Assembly: GCF_003339845.1 (NCBI RefSeq)
Contig: NZ_PPTR01000009.1
Coordinates: 1-64,000 of the forward strand
DNA length: 64,000 nucleotides
DNA from: Gordonibacter sp. 28C
GTDB lineage: Bacteria; Actinomycetota; Coriobacteriia; Coriobacteriales; Eggerthellaceae
Direction: 5' to 3'
A model generated the notes under the pieces. That model made no database searches. It saw nothing but the letters and a program-made list of their open reading frames with translations, and had not been told where the DNA came from. Every line of letters begins with the position of its first letter. Within the stretch, counting starts at the first letter, position 1. Position numbers and translations under genes: made by a program. This document shows, piece after piece, positions 18,992 to 27,558 of the stretch.

Positions 18992-19030
18992 CATGACGCG
19001 CCGCCGGTTGAACAGGTGGAAGGAAACGAC

Positions 19031-20023
19031 ATGGGCATGAAAGTTGCAGTGTTGATGGGCGGCGCGTCGTTCGAACGCGAGTTCTCGCTGGCCAGCGGCA
19101 AGAACGTATGCGCGGCGCTCGAGGAGGCCGGGCACAAGGTGGTGCCGCTGGACACCACGAGCGACCTCGTTCCCACACTGCGCAGCGAGCGTCCCGACGT
19201 GTGCTACAGCGCCCTGCACGGCAAGCACGGCGAGGACGGCACCATCCAGAGCCTGCTCGAGTTCGTGGGCATCCCCTTCATCGGCTCTCCGTCGCACGTG
19301 TGCCATCGCACGTGGAACAAGGACTCCATGCACTACGAACTGGCCACGTACCGCGCCATCACCGGCGAGGCGCCTGTGGCTTCGTGGCCGCAGGGCCTCT
19401 ACATCGCGCGCGACGCGTTCAAGGACATGGGCGCCGCAACGGCGCTCGACTTGGTGGAAGAGCGCGTGATAGGCGGCTACCCCGTGGCGGTGAAGCCCGC
19501 GCACGGTGGCTCGGCCCTGGGCGTGCACCGCGTGGACTCCGTCGACGACCTGGGCGAGGCCATCCTCGACGCGCTGTCGTTCGACGAGGCCGTGGTCATC
19601 GAGCAATGGGTGGAAGGCGTGGAGATGGCCGTGTCGGTGCTGGGCACCGGCTGGGACGCCTACGCGCTGCCGCCGGTGGAGATCGTGCCGAAGCAGGGCC
19701 TGTACGACACCGCCGCCCGCCTCGATCCCAACGCGGTCGACTACATCGCGCCGGTGCGTCCGTCCTCCCTCTCCGATGACGAGGGCGACGCGCAGGCCAT
19801 CCGCGCCGAGATCGAGCGCGCCGCGCTGGAGGTCTACCGCGCCTACAACGCGCGCGACCTCGCCCGCATCGACCTCATCTGGGACGGCGCCCAAGCCCGT
19901 GTGTTCGAGGTGAACGTGTCGCCCGGCATGACGGAGAACTCGCTGTTCCCCGCCGCCTGCGCCGCCGCCGGCCTTTCCCTGTCCGGCGTTCTGAACGAAC
20001 TGGTGAGCCAGTACGCGAAGTAA
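19031..20023 (+). CDS. ddl: D-alanine--D-alanine ligase
   Basis: 330 residues, ATP-grasp fold, cytoplasmic. It joins two D-Ala to make the peptidoglycan precursor dipeptide. Visible are the N-terminal VAVLMGGASFEREFSLASG, ALHGKHGEDGTIQSLLEFVG, GYPVAVKPAHGGSALGVH (ATP-binding Lys and Gly-rich loop), and the metal-site RIDLIWDGAQARVFEVNVSPGMTE (EVN-P-G). The serine-binding loop reads GGASFEREFSL rather than the common GG.S.E...S, still compatible. ATG 19031 follows AAGGA. It lies after the repeat cluster. Confidence 0.93.
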   Translation: MGMKVAVLMGGASFEREFSLASGKNVCAALEEAGHKVVPLDTTSDLVPTLRSERPDVCYSALHGKHGEDGTIQSLLEFVGIPFIGSPSHVCHRTWNKDSMHYELATYRAITGEAPVASWPQGLYIARDAFKDMGAATALDLVEERVIGGYPVAVKPAHGGSALGVHRVDSVDDLGEAILDALSFDEAVVIEQWVEGVEMAVSVLGTGWDAYALPPVEIVPKQGLYDTAARLDPNAVDYIAPVRPSSLSDDEGDAQAIRAEIERAALEVYRAYNARDLARIDLIWDGAQARVFEVNVSPGMTENSLFPAACAAAGLSLSGVLNELVSQYAK

Positions 20024-20038: not shown

Positions 20039-20592
20039 ATGTCCTTGCGTGCACGCACATACCGCGCACTCTTTCTGTCTGTGCTTGTCGCGCTCGGCTT
20101 GTCGCTGTGCGCGCTCGTTCCGTTTGCCGTTGCTGCGGAGCCCGCGTTGCCGGTTGCGCAGGCTGTCGAGAGCGGCTCGACCCGTCCGGGACGGCTTTCG
20201 CCGCCGATCAAGCGGAGCCTTCCCCTGCCGAAAGAGGCGATCCGGACGATCCGGTCTACCAATTCGCCTTCAACTTGGGGTATGCGCTAGCCTACGTCCT
20301 AGCCGCACTTTTCCTTGCGATCCCTCCTTTGGCAATAGCCGTAGCCGTCTACGCCTTGGTGAGCAAGAGGCGCATGGCGAAACGCGTACCCCCCGTCATG
20401 ATGCCGCTGGCTGCGGCACCGCCCCAGGTCGGGCCTCCCTTGGCCGGGTCGTATGCGGGGGGCGTTCCCGTCGAGACGCCCCGCAAAGAGGTGCCGCCTC
20501 AAGCCCAGCTTGTGAAATTCAGCGACGAATACGTAGAACAGCTCGCGCGCAAATACGAGTCGGCCGACGCGGAACCGGGCGTTCCGCAATAA
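20039..20592 (+). pseudogene. Small membrane protein gene split by a frameshift
   Basis: Two frames together make one sensible protein. The first, from ATG 20039, gives a signal peptide (RALFLSVLVALGLSLCALVP, then FAVAAEP) to about 20190. The second gives DDPVYQFAFNLGYALAYVLA, a membrane helix, a basic KRRMAKR and a tail ending at 20592. The switch lies near 20190-20205 and looks like a one-base change. The tail motif KFSDEYVEQLARKYE matches KFGDQDVEELSRKYE in the TPM protein downstream, linking it to the PspA cluster. It could be a sequencing error or real inactivation. Intact length would be about 183 residues. Confidence 0.65.
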
Positions 20593-20761
20593 AGCCGTCG
20601 GTCGGGCGACGTGCCGAAAGCGCGTTCGCCTATGCGATCTCCGGTGTTGATTCACACCGCTATGCTACACTTTTGCCGAGAGTCGGGTACGGCGCGGTGC
20701 ATGCGAAGGCGGTATTTCGCAGGAGGCGCCGACGGAGCGTCAGACAGGAGAGGGATAGACG

Positions 20762-21442
20762 ATGGGCATTCTGGACCGTTTTTCCGACATCGCCAAGGCG
20801 AACGTCAACGACCTGCTCGACCAGTGCGAGGATCCCTCGAAGATGATCGACCAGTATCTGAGCGACCTCACGGAAGACCTGATAGAGGTGAAGCAGGGGA
20901 CCGCCGGCGTCATGGCCGAGGAAACGCGCACGAAGCGCCTGGTGGACGAGAACGACGGCCAGATCGCGCGCTTCGCGGGGCTTGCCCGCAAGGCGCTGGA
21001 AGCCGGCAACGAGGACGACGCGCGCGTGTTCCTGACGAAGAAGCAGGAGCTGGAAGCGGAAGGCGCCGACTTGGCCGTCATCTACGGGGCGGCGCACGAC
21101 AATGCGAGCAAGATGCGCCAGCTGCACGACAAGCTGGTGGACGACATCGAGAAGCTCAACGCGCGCCGCGAGCTGATCAAAGCCAAGGTGTCCGTGGCAA
21201 AAACGCAGGACTTGGTGAACGAGTACGCGCCCCGCACCGAGAAGGCGTCGGGCGCGCTGAACGCGTTCGACCGCATGGAGGATGCCGCCGATACGCTGCT
21301 CGATCGGGCGAACGCCGCCGCCGAGCTCGACCAAGGCCCGGCAGATGAGGCCGCGGCTCTCGAAGCGAAGTACGCCGGCATGCGCGGCAGCGCGGCGGTC
21401 GAGGACGAGTTGACCGCGCTCAAAGCGGAAATGGGCCTGTAG
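20762..21442 (+). CDS. pspA: PspA/IM30 family protein (first copy)
   Basis: 226 residues, almost wholly helical coiled coil, beginning MGILDRFSDIAKANVNDLLD and DPSKMIDQYLSDL, the classic PspA N-terminus. PspA proteins form ESCRT-III-like polymers on the inner face of the membrane and protect it during envelope stress. The end ALKAEMGL is shared with a second copy at 22884, about 60 percent alike by eye. An AGGAGA ribosome binding site precedes ATG 20762. The TPM-domain gene follows by 30 bases. Confidence 0.93.
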   Translation: MGILDRFSDIAKANVNDLLDQCEDPSKMIDQYLSDLTEDLIEVKQGTAGVMAEETRTKRLVDENDGQIARFAGLARKALEAGNEDDARVFLTKKQELEAEGADLAVIYGAAHDNASKMRQLHDKLVDDIEKLNARRELIKAKVSVAKTQDLVNEYAPRTEKASGALNAFDRMEDAADTLLDRANAAAELDQGPADEAAALEAKYAGMRGSAAVEDELTALKAEMGL

Positions 21443-21472
21443 CGCCGACGGCGCGCGGAAAAGGGAGGCGCG

Positions 21473-22819
21473 ATGGGTAGATCGGGAGGGGGAGGCTCGG
21501 GCGGCCGTTCCGGAGGAGGGCGTTCCGGCGGCGGCTTCTCGGGAGGCGGCCGTTCGTCGGGCGGGTTCTCCGGAGGGCGCTCGTCCGGAGGCTCGGGCGG
21601 AAGGTCGCTCTTCTCCGGCGGCAGCTCGGGAGGTTCGGGGTCTGGCGGCGGATCGCGGAATCGCGGCTCGGGCGGCTTCAACATAGGCCCCATCGTGCCG
21701 ATCTTCATAAATCGGGGGCGGAAACGCGGCGGCGACGTTCCGCGCGGGGACGCTCCGGGCTACGGCTACCCGCCGAACGGTTATCCCCCCGCGGGTTCCG
21801 GGGCGCCTTACGACAACGCCCCGAACAACGCGCCGGGGTACGGCGCGCCTCCCAACGGCGGCGCTCCCGGCACGTACCCCTCTTCTCCCTATCCCGGCAA
21901 CGCGCCTTCCTACGCTCCGCCCTCTGCCGGTGCGCCGAGCGCCGGAGCGGGCTCGTCGAAGAAGGGCTGCGGCTGCTCCACCGTCCTGCTGGTGCTGGGC
22001 GTGCTGATAGTGCTGTCTTCCGTGGTGAGCCTGGCGTTCTCGTGCGCGGGCACGAAGATCGACGGCACGCCCATCGTCGAGCGCGAGCCGCTGGCCGCAT
22101 CGGCCGTCGTCGAGACCGGTTACTACACCGACGAGGACGGCGATTGGGTGCACAGCCCGGGCAAGCTCGAGAACGGCCTGCTCGATTTCTATCGGCAAAC
22201 CGGCGTGCAACCCTACGTGTACATACTGCCGAACGGCACGACCACCTCGACGCAGGAGCTGGGCGCGCTCGCCGAGCAGCGTTACGACGAGCTGTTCTCG
22301 GACGAGGGCCATTTCCTGCTCGTGTTCTGCGACGATGGCGATGGAGGGTTCAACTGCGGCTACGCGATGGGCTCGCAGGCGCGCTCCGTCATGGACGGCG
22401 CGGCCGTCGACGTGCTGGCCGCCAACCTCGACAAGAACTACCGCAATTACTCGCTCGACGAAGAGGAGATATTCTCCAAGGCGTTCGCCGATACGGCGAA
22501 AACGATCATGGAGAAGGACGAAACCGTGTACAACGCCGTGGTGTCCCTGGTGGTGGTGCTCGTCATCGTGCTGGCGTACGTGGCGTACCGGGTGATGCGC
22601 ACGAAGAGGCAAGAGAAGGAGCGAGCGCGCCAGCTCCAAGAGGAGCTGCTCAGAACCCCGCTGGAGAAGTTCGGGGACCAGGATGTGGAGGAGCTCTCGC
22701 GCAAGTACGAGCAAGCGCCACCCCAGGCGCCCGCCAACGCCGCGCCTGCCCAGCCGTCGGCGCAAGCGCAGGCACCTTCCGAGACCTCCGCGCCGCCACC
22801 CCAGCAGCCCGGCGCCTAA
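21473..22819 (+). CDS. TPM-domain membrane protein with Gly/Ser-rich N-terminus
   Basis: 448 residues. The first 65 are almost only Gly, Ser and Arg (GGRSGGG repeats); then a Pro/Tyr/Gly-rich stretch, a membrane helix (about 172-192), an external TPM-like domain (YYTDEDGDWVHSPGKLENGL, VYILPNGTTTS, HFLLVFCDDGDGGFNCGYAMG), a second membrane helix (about 360-380) and a cytoplasmic tail with KFGDQDVEELSRKYE. TPM (YgcG-type) proteins commonly accompany PspA or other membrane-integrity genes. The N-terminal low-complexity part facing the cytoplasm is unusual. Co-operonic with both PspA genes. Confidence 0.8.
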   Translation: MGRSGGGGSGGRSGGGRSGGGFSGGGRSSGGFSGGRSSGGSGGRSLFSGGSSGGSGSGGGSRNRGSGGFNIGPIVPIFINRGRKRGGDVPRGDAPGYGYPPNGYPPAGSGAPYDNAPNNAPGYGAPPNGGAPGTYPSSPYPGNAPSYAPPSAGAPSAGAGSSKKGCGCSTVLLVLGVLIVLSSVVSLAFSCAGTKIDGTPIVEREPLAASAVVETGYYTDEDGDWVHSPGKLENGLLDFYRQTGVQPYVYILPNGTTTSTQELGALAEQRYDELFSDEGHFLLVFCDDGDGGFNCGYAMGSQARSVMDGAAVDVLAANLDKNYRNYSLDEEEIFSKAFADTAKTIMEKDETVYNAVVSLVVVLVIVLAYVAYRVMRTKRQEKERARQLQEELLRTPLEKFGDQDVEELSRKYEQAPPQAPANAAPAQPSAQAQAPSETSAPPPQQPGA

Positions 22820-22883
22820 CAGGGAACGACCCCGCCGAAGCGCGGGGATACCATACACGATGCAAGACAGGAGAGCGGTAACC

Positions 22884-23564
22884 ATGGGAATACTCGATCG
22901 ATTCACCGACATCATCAAGGCGAACATCAACGACCTGCTCGACAAGTGCGAGGACCCCGCGAAGATGATCGACCAGTACCTGCGCAACCTCACCGAGGAC
23001 CTCGCCGAGGTGAAGCAGGAGACCGCCGGCGTCATGGCCGAGGAAAAGCGCACGAAGCGCCTGGTGGACGAGAACGCCGCCGAGGTGGCGAAGTACGACG
23101 ACCTGGCACGCAAGGCGCTGGCGGCCGGCAACGAGGCCGACGCCCGCACGTTTCTGGCGAAGAAGCAGCAGCTCGACGCCCGCACGGCCAGCCTGCAGGA
23201 ATCGTACGAGGCCGCCTGCGCGAACGCAGCCAAGATGCGCCAGATGTACGACAAGCTGGTGAGCGACATCGAGGAGCTCAACGGCCGCCGCGACGCGGTG
23301 AAGGCCAAAGTGGCCGTGGCCAAGACGCAGGACAAGGTGAACGACATCGCGTCGGGCGTGGACAAGAGCGCCGAGGCCATGGGCGCGTTCGCGCGCATGG
23401 AGGCAAAGGCCGACGGCATGCTCGACCGCTCCAACGCCATGAGCGAGCTCAACGCGAAGCCGGTGGACGACGCGGCCGCGCTCGAGGCGAAGTACGCCGC
23501 CGCCGGCAACGACGCGGCCGTGGAGGACGAGCTCGCCAAGCTGAAGGCGGAGATGGGGCTGTAA
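22884..23564 (+). CDS. PspA/IM30 family protein (second copy)
   Basis: 226 residues, same length as the copy at 20762 and collinear with it from MGILDRF to LKAEMGL. It has the same KRLVDEN and AKTQD landmarks, so it arose by duplication around the TPM gene. The expected role is membrane-surface polymer formation under envelope stress. ATG 22884 is preceded by ACAGGAGAG. Divergence is highest in the linker after the central coiled coil, which could mean different partners. Confidence 0.93.
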   Translation: MGILDRFTDIIKANINDLLDKCEDPAKMIDQYLRNLTEDLAEVKQETAGVMAEEKRTKRLVDENAAEVAKYDDLARKALAAGNEADARTFLAKKQQLDARTASLQESYEAACANAAKMRQMYDKLVSDIEELNGRRDAVKAKVAVAKTQDKVNDIASGVDKSAEAMGAFARMEAKADGMLDRSNAMSELNAKPVDDAAALEAKYAAAGNDAAVEDELAKLKAEMGL

Positions 23565-23666
23565 AAACAAAGGCCAGGCTGCGGGTCGTGTTGAGGCGCG
23601 GCAACGAAAAGGCAACTGAATCATAGAGCGCTCGTGTATTCCGTACCGCCGGAAGGTGGCTGCCCC

Positions 23667-23672
23667 TATAAT
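23667..23672 (+). promoter_or_regulatory. Candidate -10 box of the YtxH-like gene
   Basis: TATAAT followed by GGG, 49 bases before ATG 23716, with no clear -35 element. Same pattern as before serS. Confidence 0.45.
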
Positions 23673-23715
23673 GGGTAAATCGACAAACGTCCAGAACATC
23701 CTTTAGGAGGCAGAT

Positions 23716-24366
23716 ATGGGCAACAAATTCGGATCCTTTCTCGCCGGCGGTCTGATAGGCGCCGCCGTCGCGCTGCTGTACGCTCCCCGCGCGGGTCATG
23801 AGACGCGCGCCATGGTCACGGACAAGGTGAACGCCGCATGGGGCGAGGCCCAAGAGCTGGGCGCCCAGGCGAGCGCGAACGCGCAGCAGGCGTACCAGGG
23901 CGCCACGGCCAAGGGCCAGGAAGTCGCGCACGACGTGGCCGCCAAGGGCCAGCAGGCCGTGCAGACCGCGCAGGCCAAGGGCCAGGAGCTTTACGGCGCC
24001 GCCAGCGCGCGCGTGCAGGAGGCCGCCGACAACATCAAGCCGGTGTTCTCCGAGAAGAACGACGATCTGCGCGAGAAGATCGAAGCCGCCCGCCAGCGCA
24101 TCGCTGCCCAGGTGGCCAAGAACGCCGAACAGGCCCATGACGCCGTGAGCGACAAGATTCCCGTGGCGGCCGACGCCGCGCACGAGACGGTGGACAACGT
24201 GGCCGACAAAGCGGAGGACGTGGCCGACAAGGCGAAGGACGCTTTCGAGACGGCCGCCGACAAGGTCGCCGGCGACGGCAAGGAGTCGAAGACCGAGCTT
24301 CCCGATTACGCCGTGCCGGGTCAGCCGGGCGGCTCCGACATCGCGGAAGGCAAGAAGGAATACTAG
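23716..24366 (+). CDS. YtxH-like general stress protein
   Basis: 216 residues. The N-terminus MGNKFGSFLAGGLIGAAVAL then LYAPRAGHETR is the YtxH signature (short membrane helix then the YAPxxGxETR motif). The rest is a long amphipathic helical region with repeated Ala/Lys/Gln/Asp heptads (AKGQE, ADKAED), LEA-like in composition. YtxH relatives are stress-induced membrane-associated proteins in Gram-positives. AGGAGG is placed 7 bases before ATG. It continues the PspA-region envelope theme. Confidence 0.82.
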   Translation: MGNKFGSFLAGGLIGAAVALLYAPRAGHETRAMVTDKVNAAWGEAQELGAQASANAQQAYQGATAKGQEVAHDVAAKGQQAVQTAQAKGQELYGAASARVQEAADNIKPVFSEKNDDLREKIEAARQRIAAQVAKNAEQAHDAVSDKIPVAADAAHETVDNVADKAEDVADKAKDAFETAADKVAGDGKESKTELPDYAVPGQPGGSDIAEGKKEY

Positions 24367-24525
24367 CAGCTTGCACAAACGAAGGCGGCGAAGCGTGAAG
24401 CCGAGCGGTGCACCAGTCGCTCGGCTTTCGCTCGCCGTTTTCGCGTCATCGGCGTGCTTTCGGCCGCTGCGGCGTGAGAGCGTCGCGACCGCTTCGCGCC
24501 GCACGCGTTTGGGGGAAGAGTAGAC

Positions 24526-25533
24526 ATGGCCAAGCAACTGATCACGACCGACGAGCTCATGGGCGTGCGCGTCGTCGGCGGGAAGAAGGGCACGAGGCGC
24601 ATCGGCAAGGTGCGCCGCTTCGTGTTCCACCCGAAGGAGAAGCGCGTCGTCGGCTTCGTCGTGAAACGCCCCGACCTGCTGTGGATGTTCCACCGCAAGG
24701 ACCTGTTCGTTTCCATCAACGGATTCGACGTGGAGGACGGGCGCATCGTGGTGCGCAACGAGCCGACGGCCACCAACCGGGCCGCCTGCAAAGAACTCGG
24801 CGTCGATTGGGACGCCTGCGTGCTGTGGGTGGGGCTGCCCGTCATGACCGAGGACGGAGAAACGCTCGGCGTGGTGGGCTCCGTGACGCTCAATCGCTCG
24901 ACCGGGGTCATCGAAGGCATCACCACTGACAGCGGCGCCACGGCCAACGCGCTGCTGGGCAAACGAGAGATATCCGCCGATCTTGTCAAAGGCTTCAAAC
25001 GCGGCATGGGCGCGGCGTTGGCGCGTACCGGCGAGGAAGGGCAGGAGGCCGACGACGTGGTGCTCGGCGCCATCCTCGTGGCCGACGAAGCGCGCGACAT
25101 CGCGGTGGAGGGCGGCTTGGCCGAGAAGGCCGGCGAGGCCACGGCCGTGGTGGTTGACAAGGCCCACACCGCCGTCGACAAGGCAAAACCGGTGGCAAGC
25201 GCCGCCGCGAAGAAAACGGGCGAAGTGGTGAACAAGGGCGCCTACGCCACCGGCAAGCAGATCGCCGCCACCAAGGGCATGTTCTCCGGCTTCAAGGAAG
25301 AGTACGACAAGGCGCGCGGTCCGAAGCCCGCCAAGGAGACCGCCATCGAGAAGGCCGACGACGAAGCCGCATCGCCCGCGCCCGTCAAGAAGGCGGCCTC
25401 CGCGAAGCAGCCGACGGCCGCGAAGCCGGCGGCGTCGACGGCCAAGAAGAAGCCCGCCCAGAAACAGGCTTCCAAGAAGGGCATGTTCTCCGCGTTCAAA
25501 GAAGAGTACGACAAAGCGCGCCACGACGAATAG
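24526..25533 (+). CDS. PRC-barrel domain protein with Lys/Ala-rich tail
   Basis: 335 residues. Two PRC-barrel-like units can be seen: residues about 1-75 (ELMGVRVVGGKKGTRRIGKV) and about 95-150 (GLPVMTEDGETLGVVGSV). The second half is helical and Ala/Lys-rich and contains a repeated motif KGMFSGFKEEYDKAR / KGMFSAFKEEYDKAR near 250 and 320. PRC barrels act as small binding platforms in many processes; the precise role here is unknown. It lies between the YtxH-like and TVP38 genes on the same strand and probably shares their function in the envelope. Confidence 0.78.
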   Translation: MAKQLITTDELMGVRVVGGKKGTRRIGKVRRFVFHPKEKRVVGFVVKRPDLLWMFHRKDLFVSINGFDVEDGRIVVRNEPTATNRAACKELGVDWDACVLWVGLPVMTEDGETLGVVGSVTLNRSTGVIEGITTDSGATANALLGKREISADLVKGFKRGMGAALARTGEEGQEADDVVLGAILVADEARDIAVEGGLAEKAGEATAVVVDKAHTAVDKAKPVASAAAKKTGEVVNKGAYATGKQIAATKGMFSGFKEEYDKARGPKPAKETAIEKADDEAASPAPVKKAASAKQPTAAKPAASTAKKKPAQKQASKKGMFSAFKEEYDKARHDE

Positions 25534-25540
25534 GCATACC

Positions 25541-26353
25541 TTGACGCAAAGATCCCCGCATACCTCGGAAACCGGCAAGCTGAAGCAGAAGGCTGTCGAA
25601 CGCAAGCACGAGCTGCACGAGAAGGCGCAGCAGGAAACGACCGTCCACGGCCATAAGATGGAGAAGGGCGACATCTTCAAGTTCGTCGGCCTGATCGCGT
25701 TCTTCGCCATCATGGTTCTGATCTGCGTGCTCATCTGGCCGTACGTCGCCGATATATTCGAGCCGGGCGGGATCGATCGCGTCATCGCCGATGTGCGCGG
25801 CGCGGGTCCCGTGGGCTTCCTCATTCTGTTGGGGCTGCAGTTCTTGCAGGTCGTGGTCGCGTTCGTTCCCGGCGAGGTCGTGCAGATCGCTGCCGGCATG
25901 CTGTATGGGCCGTGGCTCGGCGCGCTCATCATCCTGTTGGGCTGCGTTATCTCCAGCGCGTTCATCTTCGCGCTCGTGCACAAGCTGGGCGCGCCCTTCG
26001 TGCAGAACATGGTGCCCACGAAGTACCTGGAGAAGTTCCGCGCCTTCGAGAAGACGGGCAAGCTGAACATAGTCGTGTTCATCCTGTTCCTGATTCCCGG
26101 TTTGCCGAAGGACGTGTTCACCTATCTGGTGCCGCTGACCGACATGCGCATGCGCACGTTCCTCATCCTATCGAACGTCGGCCGCGTCCCCGGTGTCATC
26201 GTGTCCACGTATGCGGCCGACGGACTCGTGGACGGGCGCATTCTGGAAAGCGCCATCATCTTCGCCGTGGCCGCGCTTATCGCGGTGCTGGGGATCGTGT
26301 TTCAGAAACGCATCATGAAGTTCTTGGAAAGGCACTCGCATCGCGACAAATAG
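25541..26353 (+). CDS. TVP38/TMEM64 (DedA-like) membrane protein
   Basis: 270 residues with a basic 45-residue cytoplasmic N-terminus and about six membrane segments. The family core is visible as QVVVAFVPGEVVQIAAGMLYG followed by LGCVISSAFIFALV, and FLIPGLPKDVFTYLVPLTDM. Members of this VTT superfamily are implicated in phospholipid flipping or membrane homeostasis. The TTG start at 25541 comes 8 bases after the preceding stop; an internal ATG at 25660 is the alternative and would remove the charged N-terminus. Same operon as the PRC-barrel gene. Confidence 0.85.
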   Translation: MTQRSPHTSETGKLKQKAVERKHELHEKAQQETTVHGHKMEKGDIFKFVGLIAFFAIMVLICVLIWPYVADIFEPGGIDRVIADVRGAGPVGFLILLGLQFLQVVVAFVPGEVVQIAAGMLYGPWLGALIILLGCVISSAFIFALVHKLGAPFVQNMVPTKYLEKFRAFEKTGKLNIVVFILFLIPGLPKDVFTYLVPLTDMRMRTFLILSNVGRVPGVIVSTYAADGLVDGRILESAIIFAVAALIAVLGIVFQKRIMKFLERHSHRDK

Positions 26354-26544: not shown

Positions 26545-27558
26545 ATGAACCTCAACGAGCAGAATACTCAGAACACCAACGTAAACGACGAGGTCGTCGC
26601 CGCAGAGGCCGAGCTTCGCGCCGCCCAGGAAACGCTCGAGGCCGCCCGCGCGCGCCTCGCCGAGCTGAAAGGGGAGCATCCCGCCGTACAGCCGGGCGCC
26701 GACTCCGCTTCGAGCGACGTGCTCGTGGACGAGCTGGAGGTCGCGGCCGTAATGGTCGACGAAACGGGCGAGGTCGAAGGCGTTGTGGTGGAGCATGTCG
26801 CCGTGCCCGTTGAAGACCTCGCTTCGCGCGTCGAAGCCAATTCCGCCCTCGACGAAGACGACGCCGATGAGCCTGTGGGCGAGGCGGATGCCGACGCGAA
26901 GGCCGCTTCTGCGACGGCGGCCGGCCCTGCCGAAGGGGAGGTTTCCGAAGGGTCTCCGACCGATTCCGCAGCCATGCCCTCAACTGGTGCGGCGGCCTCT
27001 TCCGCCCAATCCGAGCCGACGCCCGATTGGGTGCCCTACACGACGGCGCCTGTTCCGGGTCCGGCCTCCGGCTCTCAACCGGCGACCCCCTCGGGCGTGC
27101 CGTACACGCCGCCAGCGCCCTCTGCGGAGCCAGGCCCCGTGCCGCCCGCGTCCTCGCAGGGTTACTACCAGCAGCCTCAGCAGCCCTACGGCGGCTATGC
27201 GGCGCCCGGTTACGGGCAAACGCCGCACGCGGGCCCGGGCGCGGTTCCTCCCCAGCAACCGTACTACGGTTACCAGCAGCCGTACTACCAGCAACCCGTC
27301 ATAGCGACGAAAGACCACGTGGCCGCAGGTTTGCTGGGTATCTTCCTGGGCGCGCTGGGTATCCACAAGTTCTATCTGGGATACAACACGGCCGGCTTCA
27401 TCATGCTCGCCGTCACCATCCTGGGCAGCCTGTTCACGTTCGGCCTGGCAGGCGGCGTCATGTGGGTCATCGGCATCATCGAGGGCATTCTCTACCTGAC
27501 GAAGTCCCAATCCGAGTTCGAGCAGATCTACGTCGTGAACAAGCGCGAATGGTTCTAA
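26545..27558 (+). CDS. TM2-domain membrane protein with Pro/Tyr-rich linker
   Basis: 337 residues. The C-terminal TM2 domain (about 255-320) has AAGLLGIFLGALGIHKFYLG with the family DRF-like loop replaced by IHKFYLGY, then GGVMWVIGIIEGILYL. Before it lie an N-terminal coiled coil (EAELRAAQETLEAARARLAE), an acidic Ala/Glu/Asp-rich stretch and a Pro/Gln/Tyr-rich linker (QQPYGGY, QQPYYGYQQPYY). The long disordered N-terminal part faces the cytoplasm. Function unknown; TM2 proteins are widespread in Gram-positives. Confidence 0.85.
   Translation: MNLNEQNTQNTNVNDEVVAAEAELRAAQETLEAARARLAELKGEHPAVQPGADSASSDVLVDELEVAAVMVDETGEVEGVVVEHVAVPVEDLASRVEANSALDEDDADEPVGEADADAKAASATAAGPAEGEVSEGSPTDSAAMPSTGAAASSAQSEPTPDWVPYTTAPVPGPASGSQPATPSGVPYTPPAPSAEPGPVPPASSQGYYQQPQQPYGGYAAPGYGQTPHAGPGAVPPQQPYYGYQQPYYQQPVIATKDHVAAGLLGIFLGALGIHKFYLGYNTAGFIMLAVTILGSLFTFGLAGGVMWVIGIIEGILYLTKSQSEFEQIYVVNKREWF

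Follow-up and report, generated by a model that had tools for sequence, protein, structure and literature searches.

A conserved C-terminal tail on a TPM-like membrane protein between two PspA genes of Gordonibacter sp. 28C, and its likeness to helix alpha5N of the partner PspA

Positions 1 to 64,000 of contig NZ_PPTR01000009.1 from Gordonibacter sp. 28C (hereafter the window, meaning the whole 64,000-nucleotide stretch that was analysed) contain two pspA genes separated by the gene of a TPM-like membrane protein and preceded by a small membrane-protein gene. Our subject is a short C-terminal motif, here called the tail, which the TPM-like and the small protein share, which is closely tied to one subfamily of PspA, and which may imitate helix alpha5N of that PspA. 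As the initial annotation had stated, the two PspA proteins are of equal length and flank the membrane protein. All of these genes lie on the + strand. The gaps of 30 bases between PspA1 and TPM and 64 bases between TPM and PspA2 make the three genes compatible with a single transcript. The features on which the argument depends are as follows.

20039-20592, + strand: small membrane-protein gene, in two frames
20497-20562, + strand: tail motif of the small protein (region of QAQLVKFSDEYVEQLARKYES), located with the tail profile
20762-21442, + strand: PspA1, 226 residues, the diverging copy (Pfam PspA_IM30, E 2.7e-36)
21017-21019, + strand: D86 of PspA1, at the hairpin tip (L86 in Vipp1)
21359-21373, + strand: LEAKY motif in alpha5N of PspA1, residues 200-204 (alignment of 119 PspA)
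21473-22819, + strand: TPM-like membrane protein, 448 residues
22646-22714, + strand: tail motif of the TPM-like protein, LLRTPLEKFGDQDVEELSRKYEQ, residues 392-414 (tail profile, E 3.1e-13)
22884-23564, + strand: PspA2, 226 residues, following the TPM gene as in most relatives (Pfam PspA_IM30, E 5e-45); its ATG start at 22884 was read from the sequence
23139-23141, + strand: D86 of PspA2, at the hairpin tip (L86 in Vipp1)
23481-23495, + strand: LEAKY motif in alpha5N of PspA2, residues 200-204, aligned with L193-F197 of Vipp1

The tail was first noticed as a motif common to the TPM-like protein (LEKFGDQDVEELSRKYE) and the small protein (VKFSDEYVEQLARKYE), and this likeness exceeds chance. An independent profile made from TPM tails only, leaving out the small protein, this genus's additional TPM protein (TPM') and the zinc-ribbon proteins described below, picks out the small protein from 885 open reading frames (ORFs) at E = 6e-4, the next match below the tail carriers lying at E = 6.5; the same profile recovers the zinc-ribbon proteins, the small proteins and TPM'. 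A profile trained with the small protein included scores that protein's tail at E 2.0e-10. Searched against the whole genome of 3.86 megabases, a profile that contained both tails matches these two places only at E <= 1, and the idea that such a tail is widespread among the proteins of this genome was rejected. The tail takes the form ILNTPLEKFGDxxVExLAxKYE, and the consensus of 29 tails is [IL]L(N/S)TPLE(K/T)FGDxxVE(D/E)LA(K/R)KYE, with the Tyr present in 29/29 and the Asp in 28/29.

All 46 TPM relatives examined, from Coriobacteriia and Bacillota, carry the tail (48 genes less two duplicate loci, with both identical copies in G020 counted), the sole TPM match that lacks it being a gene cut by the locus end. 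By eye, there are two copies in G029 and G024 and three in G006 and G852, the last ones degenerate; two copies pass E 1e-3 in each of these four genomes. The tail is also found, at E 5e-12 to 1e-7 with a profile built without zinc-ribbon proteins, on two tandem zinc-ribbon membrane proteins that have no TPM domain in each of two Eggerthellaceae metagenome-assembled genomes (G006 and G549). A zinc-ribbon query returned eight loci, six of which matched in the zinc ribbon only, with no tail in those six genomes, and a SHOCT profile had no match at E <= 0.1 in the TPM, small or zinc-ribbon proteins scanned. The zinc-ribbon carriers (L047:5793-7435 and L125:196-1810) have a small membrane-anchored gene between the two and adjoin, judging by eye, a patatin-like gene and a cluster of hydrogenase or complex-I type, with a YbjQ gene preceding in L047. 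In G020 one TPM-pspA locus occurs on two contigs (L041, L042) with identical proteins, being either a recent duplication or an assembly artefact.

The distribution of the tail follows that of PspA. Relatives of the TPM-like protein occur in 19 of 60 genomes, its own included, and 18 of these 19 have PspA. Chance partial matches to the tail reach E 8e-4, for example inside a lipoate-ligase-like protein (named by eye) of G892, so trust was limited to full-length matches or to E < 1e-4. Among 149 Coriobacteriia genomes, the tail is present at E < 1e-4 in 27 and PspA lies over its cut-off in 33, including all 27 tail genomes, as against 6 of the 122 tail-less ones (Fisher p 3e-24, uncorrected for kinship). 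Among 299 Bacillota genomes sampled around G552, seven have a full-length tail at E < 1e-3 and all seven have PspA, which is found in 71 of the 299 (p 3e-5). G714, with a tail at E 0.008, was accepted only on the strength of a concordant TPM protein and neighbouring PspA, and was excluded from the p-value; with it included, all eight Bacillota tails lie on TPM proteins in genomes with PspA, adjacent in seven of them. In 396 genomes of Actinomycetota, no convincing tail was found outside Coriobacteriia, the best other match being at E 0.002. In the family of G744, represented by 54 genomes, the real tail is in G744 only, and the TPM-pspA pair is therefore patchy. Before removal of the two duplicate loci, pspA lies directly downstream of 44 of 48 TPM genes, and after it of 43 of 46, the others being the first TPM gene of G007 and those of G034 and G777. 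The tail is conserved in two phyla, occurs on membrane proteins of three kinds that are otherwise unrelated, and is almost confined to genomes with one PspA subfamily. Its reading as a PspA-tied tag, as had been suggested, is supported; it is neither unconserved nor equally common in unrelated proteins, the two findings that were to have spoken against that idea.

PspA1 and PspA2 share 67% identity, and both match the PspA_IM30 profile (PF04012) over their full length, with 125.7 and 154.2 bits against a curated cut-off of 33.9. In a PspA model (predicted local distance difference test score, pLDDT, 78.8) helices span residues 2-11, 14-20, 24-79, 83-155, 161-190, 193-203 and 210-222, numbered without the Met. 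Together with an end-to-end alignment with Vipp1, this shows a helix order like that of the endosomal sorting complex required for transport III (ESCRT-III), with an alpha1-alpha2 hairpin and alpha5. A phmmer alignment of PspA2 with Nostoc Vipp1 (6zvr; E 1.5e-25) fixes the numbering, such that Y204 corresponds to F197, L200 to L193 and D86 to L86. According to the available part of PMC8281802, L193 and F197 of Vipp1 alpha5N dock on the hairpin tip (L86) of a neighbour, a contact termed Interface 3 and defined by an L86C/L193C crosslink and by the assembly defect of F197K/L200K.

It is at this position that the LxxKY end of the tail recurs within the partner PspA. Our alignment of 119 PspA comprised 46 within 4 kilobases of a tail carrier, the PspA of G777, 69 from tail-less genomes and three others; rows were merged where one genome repeated identical last 60 residues, the truncated copy of G068 was left out of the 46 full-length tail-type proteins, and 46 of the 63 tail-less, PspA-positive Bacillota genomes were covered. 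Tyr204 is present in 46/46 tail-type PspA, preceded by Lys (45) or Arg (1) to give LxxKY or LxxRY, whereas [KR]Y occurs in 0/69 of the others, which mostly have F or L there and Y alone in five. Helix 193-203 of the model, again numbered without the Met, ends exactly at this Tyr. The best match to the second half of the tail in most tail-type PspA lies about 33 residues from the C-terminus. The facing position has also changed, with D86 in 46/46 tail-type PspA and L or V in 69/69 others. Complete or near-complete splits between the classes are seen at positions 86 (D versus L/V), 74 (L versus Q/K) and 90 (F versus A), which rank 3, 2 and 11 for class separation among 219 columns; of these, 86 alone had been singled out in advance, from the Vipp1 work, and the other two were noticed afterwards as its likely neighbours at the hairpin tip. 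G744 holds both kinds of PspA, the linked one with LEEKY and the unlinked one with LDEEL and L86. In the zinc-ribbon genomes the short PspA reads VAERYE at alpha5N, by eye in a gapped alignment, which is close to the tails of these genomes, IAERYK and IARRYR.

Two further observations concern PspA relatives. G068 (L170:3098-3727) has an extra truncated PspA upstream of its TPM gene, in the same position as PspA1 of the window, which ends right after the KY motif (LEQFEQKYAT). In G549 and G006 (L134, L138) a short PspA-like protein of about 168 residues has no tail carrier adjacent, and its gene adjoins genes that look by eye like those of iron-sulfur and flavin oxidoreductases.

The carrier of the tail in the window reads, in order, as a Gly/Ser-rich N-terminus, a membrane span, a TPM-like ectodomain, a second span and a cytoplasmic tail. 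Charges and hydrophobic stretches suggest a protein with two passes through the membrane, an outer TPM domain and an inner tail. Its description as a TPM-domain protein was partly borne out: the window protein itself has no Pfam TPM match, while relatives match weakly (PF04536 in 14 of 30 family ectodomains, best E 1.4e-4) and a fold search favours TPM. In that search, made with Foldseek and a single-sequence model of the window protein (pLDDT 58.6), TPM structures take ranks 1-12 (best E 1.5e-3). The matches include 7tbr, whose title names a TPM domain, and BA41, Psb32, cg2496, TLP18.3, PG_0361 and mycobacterial supercomplex chains, which we take to be TPM proteins. A profile of TPM ectodomains had no match in the PDB, and no TPM or tail family was found in NCBIfam. 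The TPM fold is thus assigned with low confidence, from weak Pfam matches in relatives and a low-confidence model. In the neighbour genome G001 the TPM tail is identical to that of the window's own genome (G000) in 23/23 residues, as compared with 17/28 in the stretch after it.

The gene of the small membrane protein has no read-through in the window and looks broken: its signal peptide lies in ORF 20039-20290 and its membrane span and tail in ORF 20107-20592, in a different frame. DNA and protein alignments identify an intact homologue in G001 as a single open frame of 179 residues (L028:6362-6901), and the gene is rare, occurring in two of 60 relatives, G000 and G001. In the last 30 residues, which begin four residues ahead of VKFSDEY, 27/30 are identical between these two, as opposed to 41/115 elsewhere, and the codon differences there comprise five silent and three non-silent changes. 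Either the tail would have been the constrained part of this gene until the frame was lost, or the frame break would be a sequencing or assembly error.

The paired PspA proteins had been taken as part of a membrane-repair module; as a defining feature the duplication is not supported, since most tail-carrying genomes have one PspA. The usual arrangement in relatives is a single TPM gene followed by a single pspA. G001 has the order small - TPM' - PspA1 - TPM - PspA2, and in the PspA tree the PspA1 clade (G000, G001 and G003; support 100/100) and the PspA2 clade (four genomes, including G004; 97/91) are sisters with moderate support (87/78). The pair is probably the remnant of a tandem TPM-pspA duplication in this genus, and on the simplest account TPM' would have been lost afterwards from both the window's genome and G003. 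G007 presents an alternative outcome, with two TPM genes and one pspA. Given the sister clades and the second TPM gene before PspA1 in G001, a functional design based on paired PspA was rejected.

Taken together, tail conservation, the close tie to one PspA subfamily, the common LxxKY and a corresponding change at the docking site are directly supported, whereas membrane topology, direct tail-PspA binding and an effect on the polymer are inferred. We propose, in what we consider an evenly balanced judgement, that the TPM protein may be a membrane receptor for the neighbouring PspA, with a tail that would imitate alpha5N and keep PspA at the membrane. In this model, the TPM domain would lie outside the membrane and the cytoplasmic tail would end in a short helix (ExLxxKYE) copying alpha5N of the partner PspA (DxAxxLEEKYA). 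The reference contact would be that of Vipp1 polymers, where alpha5N clips onto the hairpin tip of the next-rung subunit at Interface 3; the tail would bind the same tip, altered to L74/D86/F90, in place of the next-rung alpha5N, and so hold, seed or cap a PspA coat at the membrane. Several tails per protein, or extra tail proteins of the small or zinc-ribbon kind, could raise avidity or add inputs. As a broader and more tentative proposition, to which we give somewhat less than an even chance, co-adaptation of this PspA subfamily and its receptors would have changed the hairpin tip (L86 to D) and alpha5N (F to KY), with membrane proteins plugging into a bacterial ESCRT-III polymer as subunits do.

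Several observations weigh against this proposal. The likeness between tail and alpha5N spans about five positions, and nothing in PspA corresponds to the tail's first half (TPLEKFGD). Tests with shuffled PspA are strong for some members and weak for others, the window copies being reached by approximately 3% and 6.5% of shuffles and others by up to 42%; when less of the motif is used, the C-terminal site gives the best match in 34/46 tail-type PspA and in 12/69 others. Tail-type PspA group in a single clade (47 rows, joined by two short ones at a split support of 0.85), and the two classes also differ at many columns away from the docking site. The PspA changes may therefore reflect one common ancestry and not repeated co-adaptation, and the clean split may be one event seen many times. 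G034 (L045) has a TPM protein with a conserved tail and no PspA match at E <= 0.1, and is an unexplained exception, while the PspA of G777 is unlinked, on another contig. Finally, the Bacillus subtilis TPM protein YdjH seems to lack the KY tail, its stop primer reading SRGSF at the end on our interpretation, yet it binds PspA, which argues that a TPM-PspA contact needs no tail.

Much of this would also follow if the linked TPM-pspA pair were simply co-inherited, the tail doing other work, such as TPM oligomerisation or binding to the membrane surface, and the LxxKY likeness being a coincidence. The single PspA clade, the tight linkage, the tail kept by G034, the short motif and the modest shuffle statistics are all as expected on these terms. 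However, the tail also occurs on zinc-ribbon proteins that are not part of the pair, and their genomes retain a PspA belonging to the tail-type clade or adjoining it; G777 retains both tail and PspA though unlinked, the small protein bears a tail but lacks a TPM domain, and we regard co-inheritance as unlikely. The importance of the motif, though not its binding to PspA, is indicated by the G744 pair, the unlinked G777, the truncated PspA of G068 and the zinc-ribbon carriers. A third party, such as an AAA+ ATPase, a protease or a chaperone, might read the LxxKY of both tail and alpha5N, in the way that Vps4 reads MIM motifs in ESCRT-III systems. The motif stands at or near the C-terminus in all carriers, which are of different kinds, and the truncated G068 protein ends in it. 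We nonetheless think such a reader rather improbable, as TPM and pspA alone recur at the loci, where no conserved third gene was seen, and the paired change at hairpin position 86 better fits a contact between PspA proteins. The same contact could also serve the opposite role, with the tail capping or titrating PspA and releasing it on stress; a mimic of a lattice contact could block that contact and multiple tails could hold several protomers, but the need of YdjH for PspA foci in B. subtilis, reported in the part of PMC8581546 available, favours recruitment and makes capping very unlikely in our estimation.

The genes bordering this set are all on the + strand.

19016-20023, + strand: Ddl
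23716-24366, + strand: YtxH (profile match)
24526-25533, + strand: PRC-barrel protein (profile match)
25541-26353, + strand: VTT/TVP38 (profile match)
26545-27558, + strand: TM2 protein

The initial annotation had counted the YtxH, PRC-barrel and TVP38 neighbours as components of one membrane-repair island with the paired PspA and TPM proteins; the genes are present by Pfam, but they are kept beside the pair in the closest relatives only. That larger island has been largely refuted by gene order and we give it almost no credence: the genes run in the same direction in the window, G001 and G003, and with one PspA in G035 and G031, but YtxH, PRC and VTT were not detected beside the TPM-pspA pair at any of the remaining loci, several of which have short flanks, and a second full-length PspA is confined to this genus. 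The PRC-barrel protein has a C-terminal repeat of its own, KGMFSGFKEEYDKAR (25273-25318) and KGMFSAFKEEYDKAR (25477-25521), both copies of which are closely matched in G001 (L028), and which seems to bear a faint resemblance to the N-terminal helix of PspA, GMLDRFTDIIKA.

With a named receptor peptide, a candidate docking residue of PspA (D86) and a predicted contact already mapped in Vipp1, the recruitment of PspA to the membrane and its release, which have been explained in few systems, become directly testable. If the receptor model is true, a bacterial ESCRT-III coat can be held by way of one of its own lattice contacts, imitated by a receptor, suggesting a way for the PspA repair coat to be membrane-anchored in these gut bacteria.

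Coupling of TPM proteins to PspA is already known. In B. subtilis, YdjH binds PspA in a two-hybrid assay, is needed for PspA membrane foci and is described, in the available part of PMC8581546, as a likely membrane anchor of PspA, which agrees with tethering here although the tail seems absent there. In both systems pspA lies beside a membrane TPM gene. The B. subtilis operon pspA-ydjGHI encodes PspA, zinc-ribbon YdjG, TPM protein YdjH and SPFH protein YdjI, whereas among the nine neighbouring proteins scanned here, to which the search was confined, there is no zinc-ribbon membrane protein and no SPFH (Band 7) protein at E <= 0.1; tail-bearing zinc-ribbon proteins occur only in G006 and G549, at a separate locus. 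The Gly-rich part is N-terminal here, unlike in B. subtilis, and the partner PspA belongs to a distinct clade. The tail itself resembles SHOCT and other short C-terminal domains in being a short C-terminal element on varied membrane proteins, although the SHOCT consensus differs from it. A 2024 survey of the phage shock protein (Psp) system (PMC11237479) presents TPM as a PspA partner in Firmicutes with a proposed chaperone-like role, the same pairing as here, and its available text mentions no C-terminal motif, Coriobacteriia pair or link to PspA alpha5; likewise, neither tail nor mimicry was found in the accessible portions of the openly licensed PubMed Central literature on Psp and TPM-PspA. 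A further likeness is to Interface 3 of Vipp1 and PspA, where LxxKY falls at the position of L193-F197 and the altered tip residue is L86; in Vipp1 the contact is made between subunits, whereas here a membrane protein would supply the copy.

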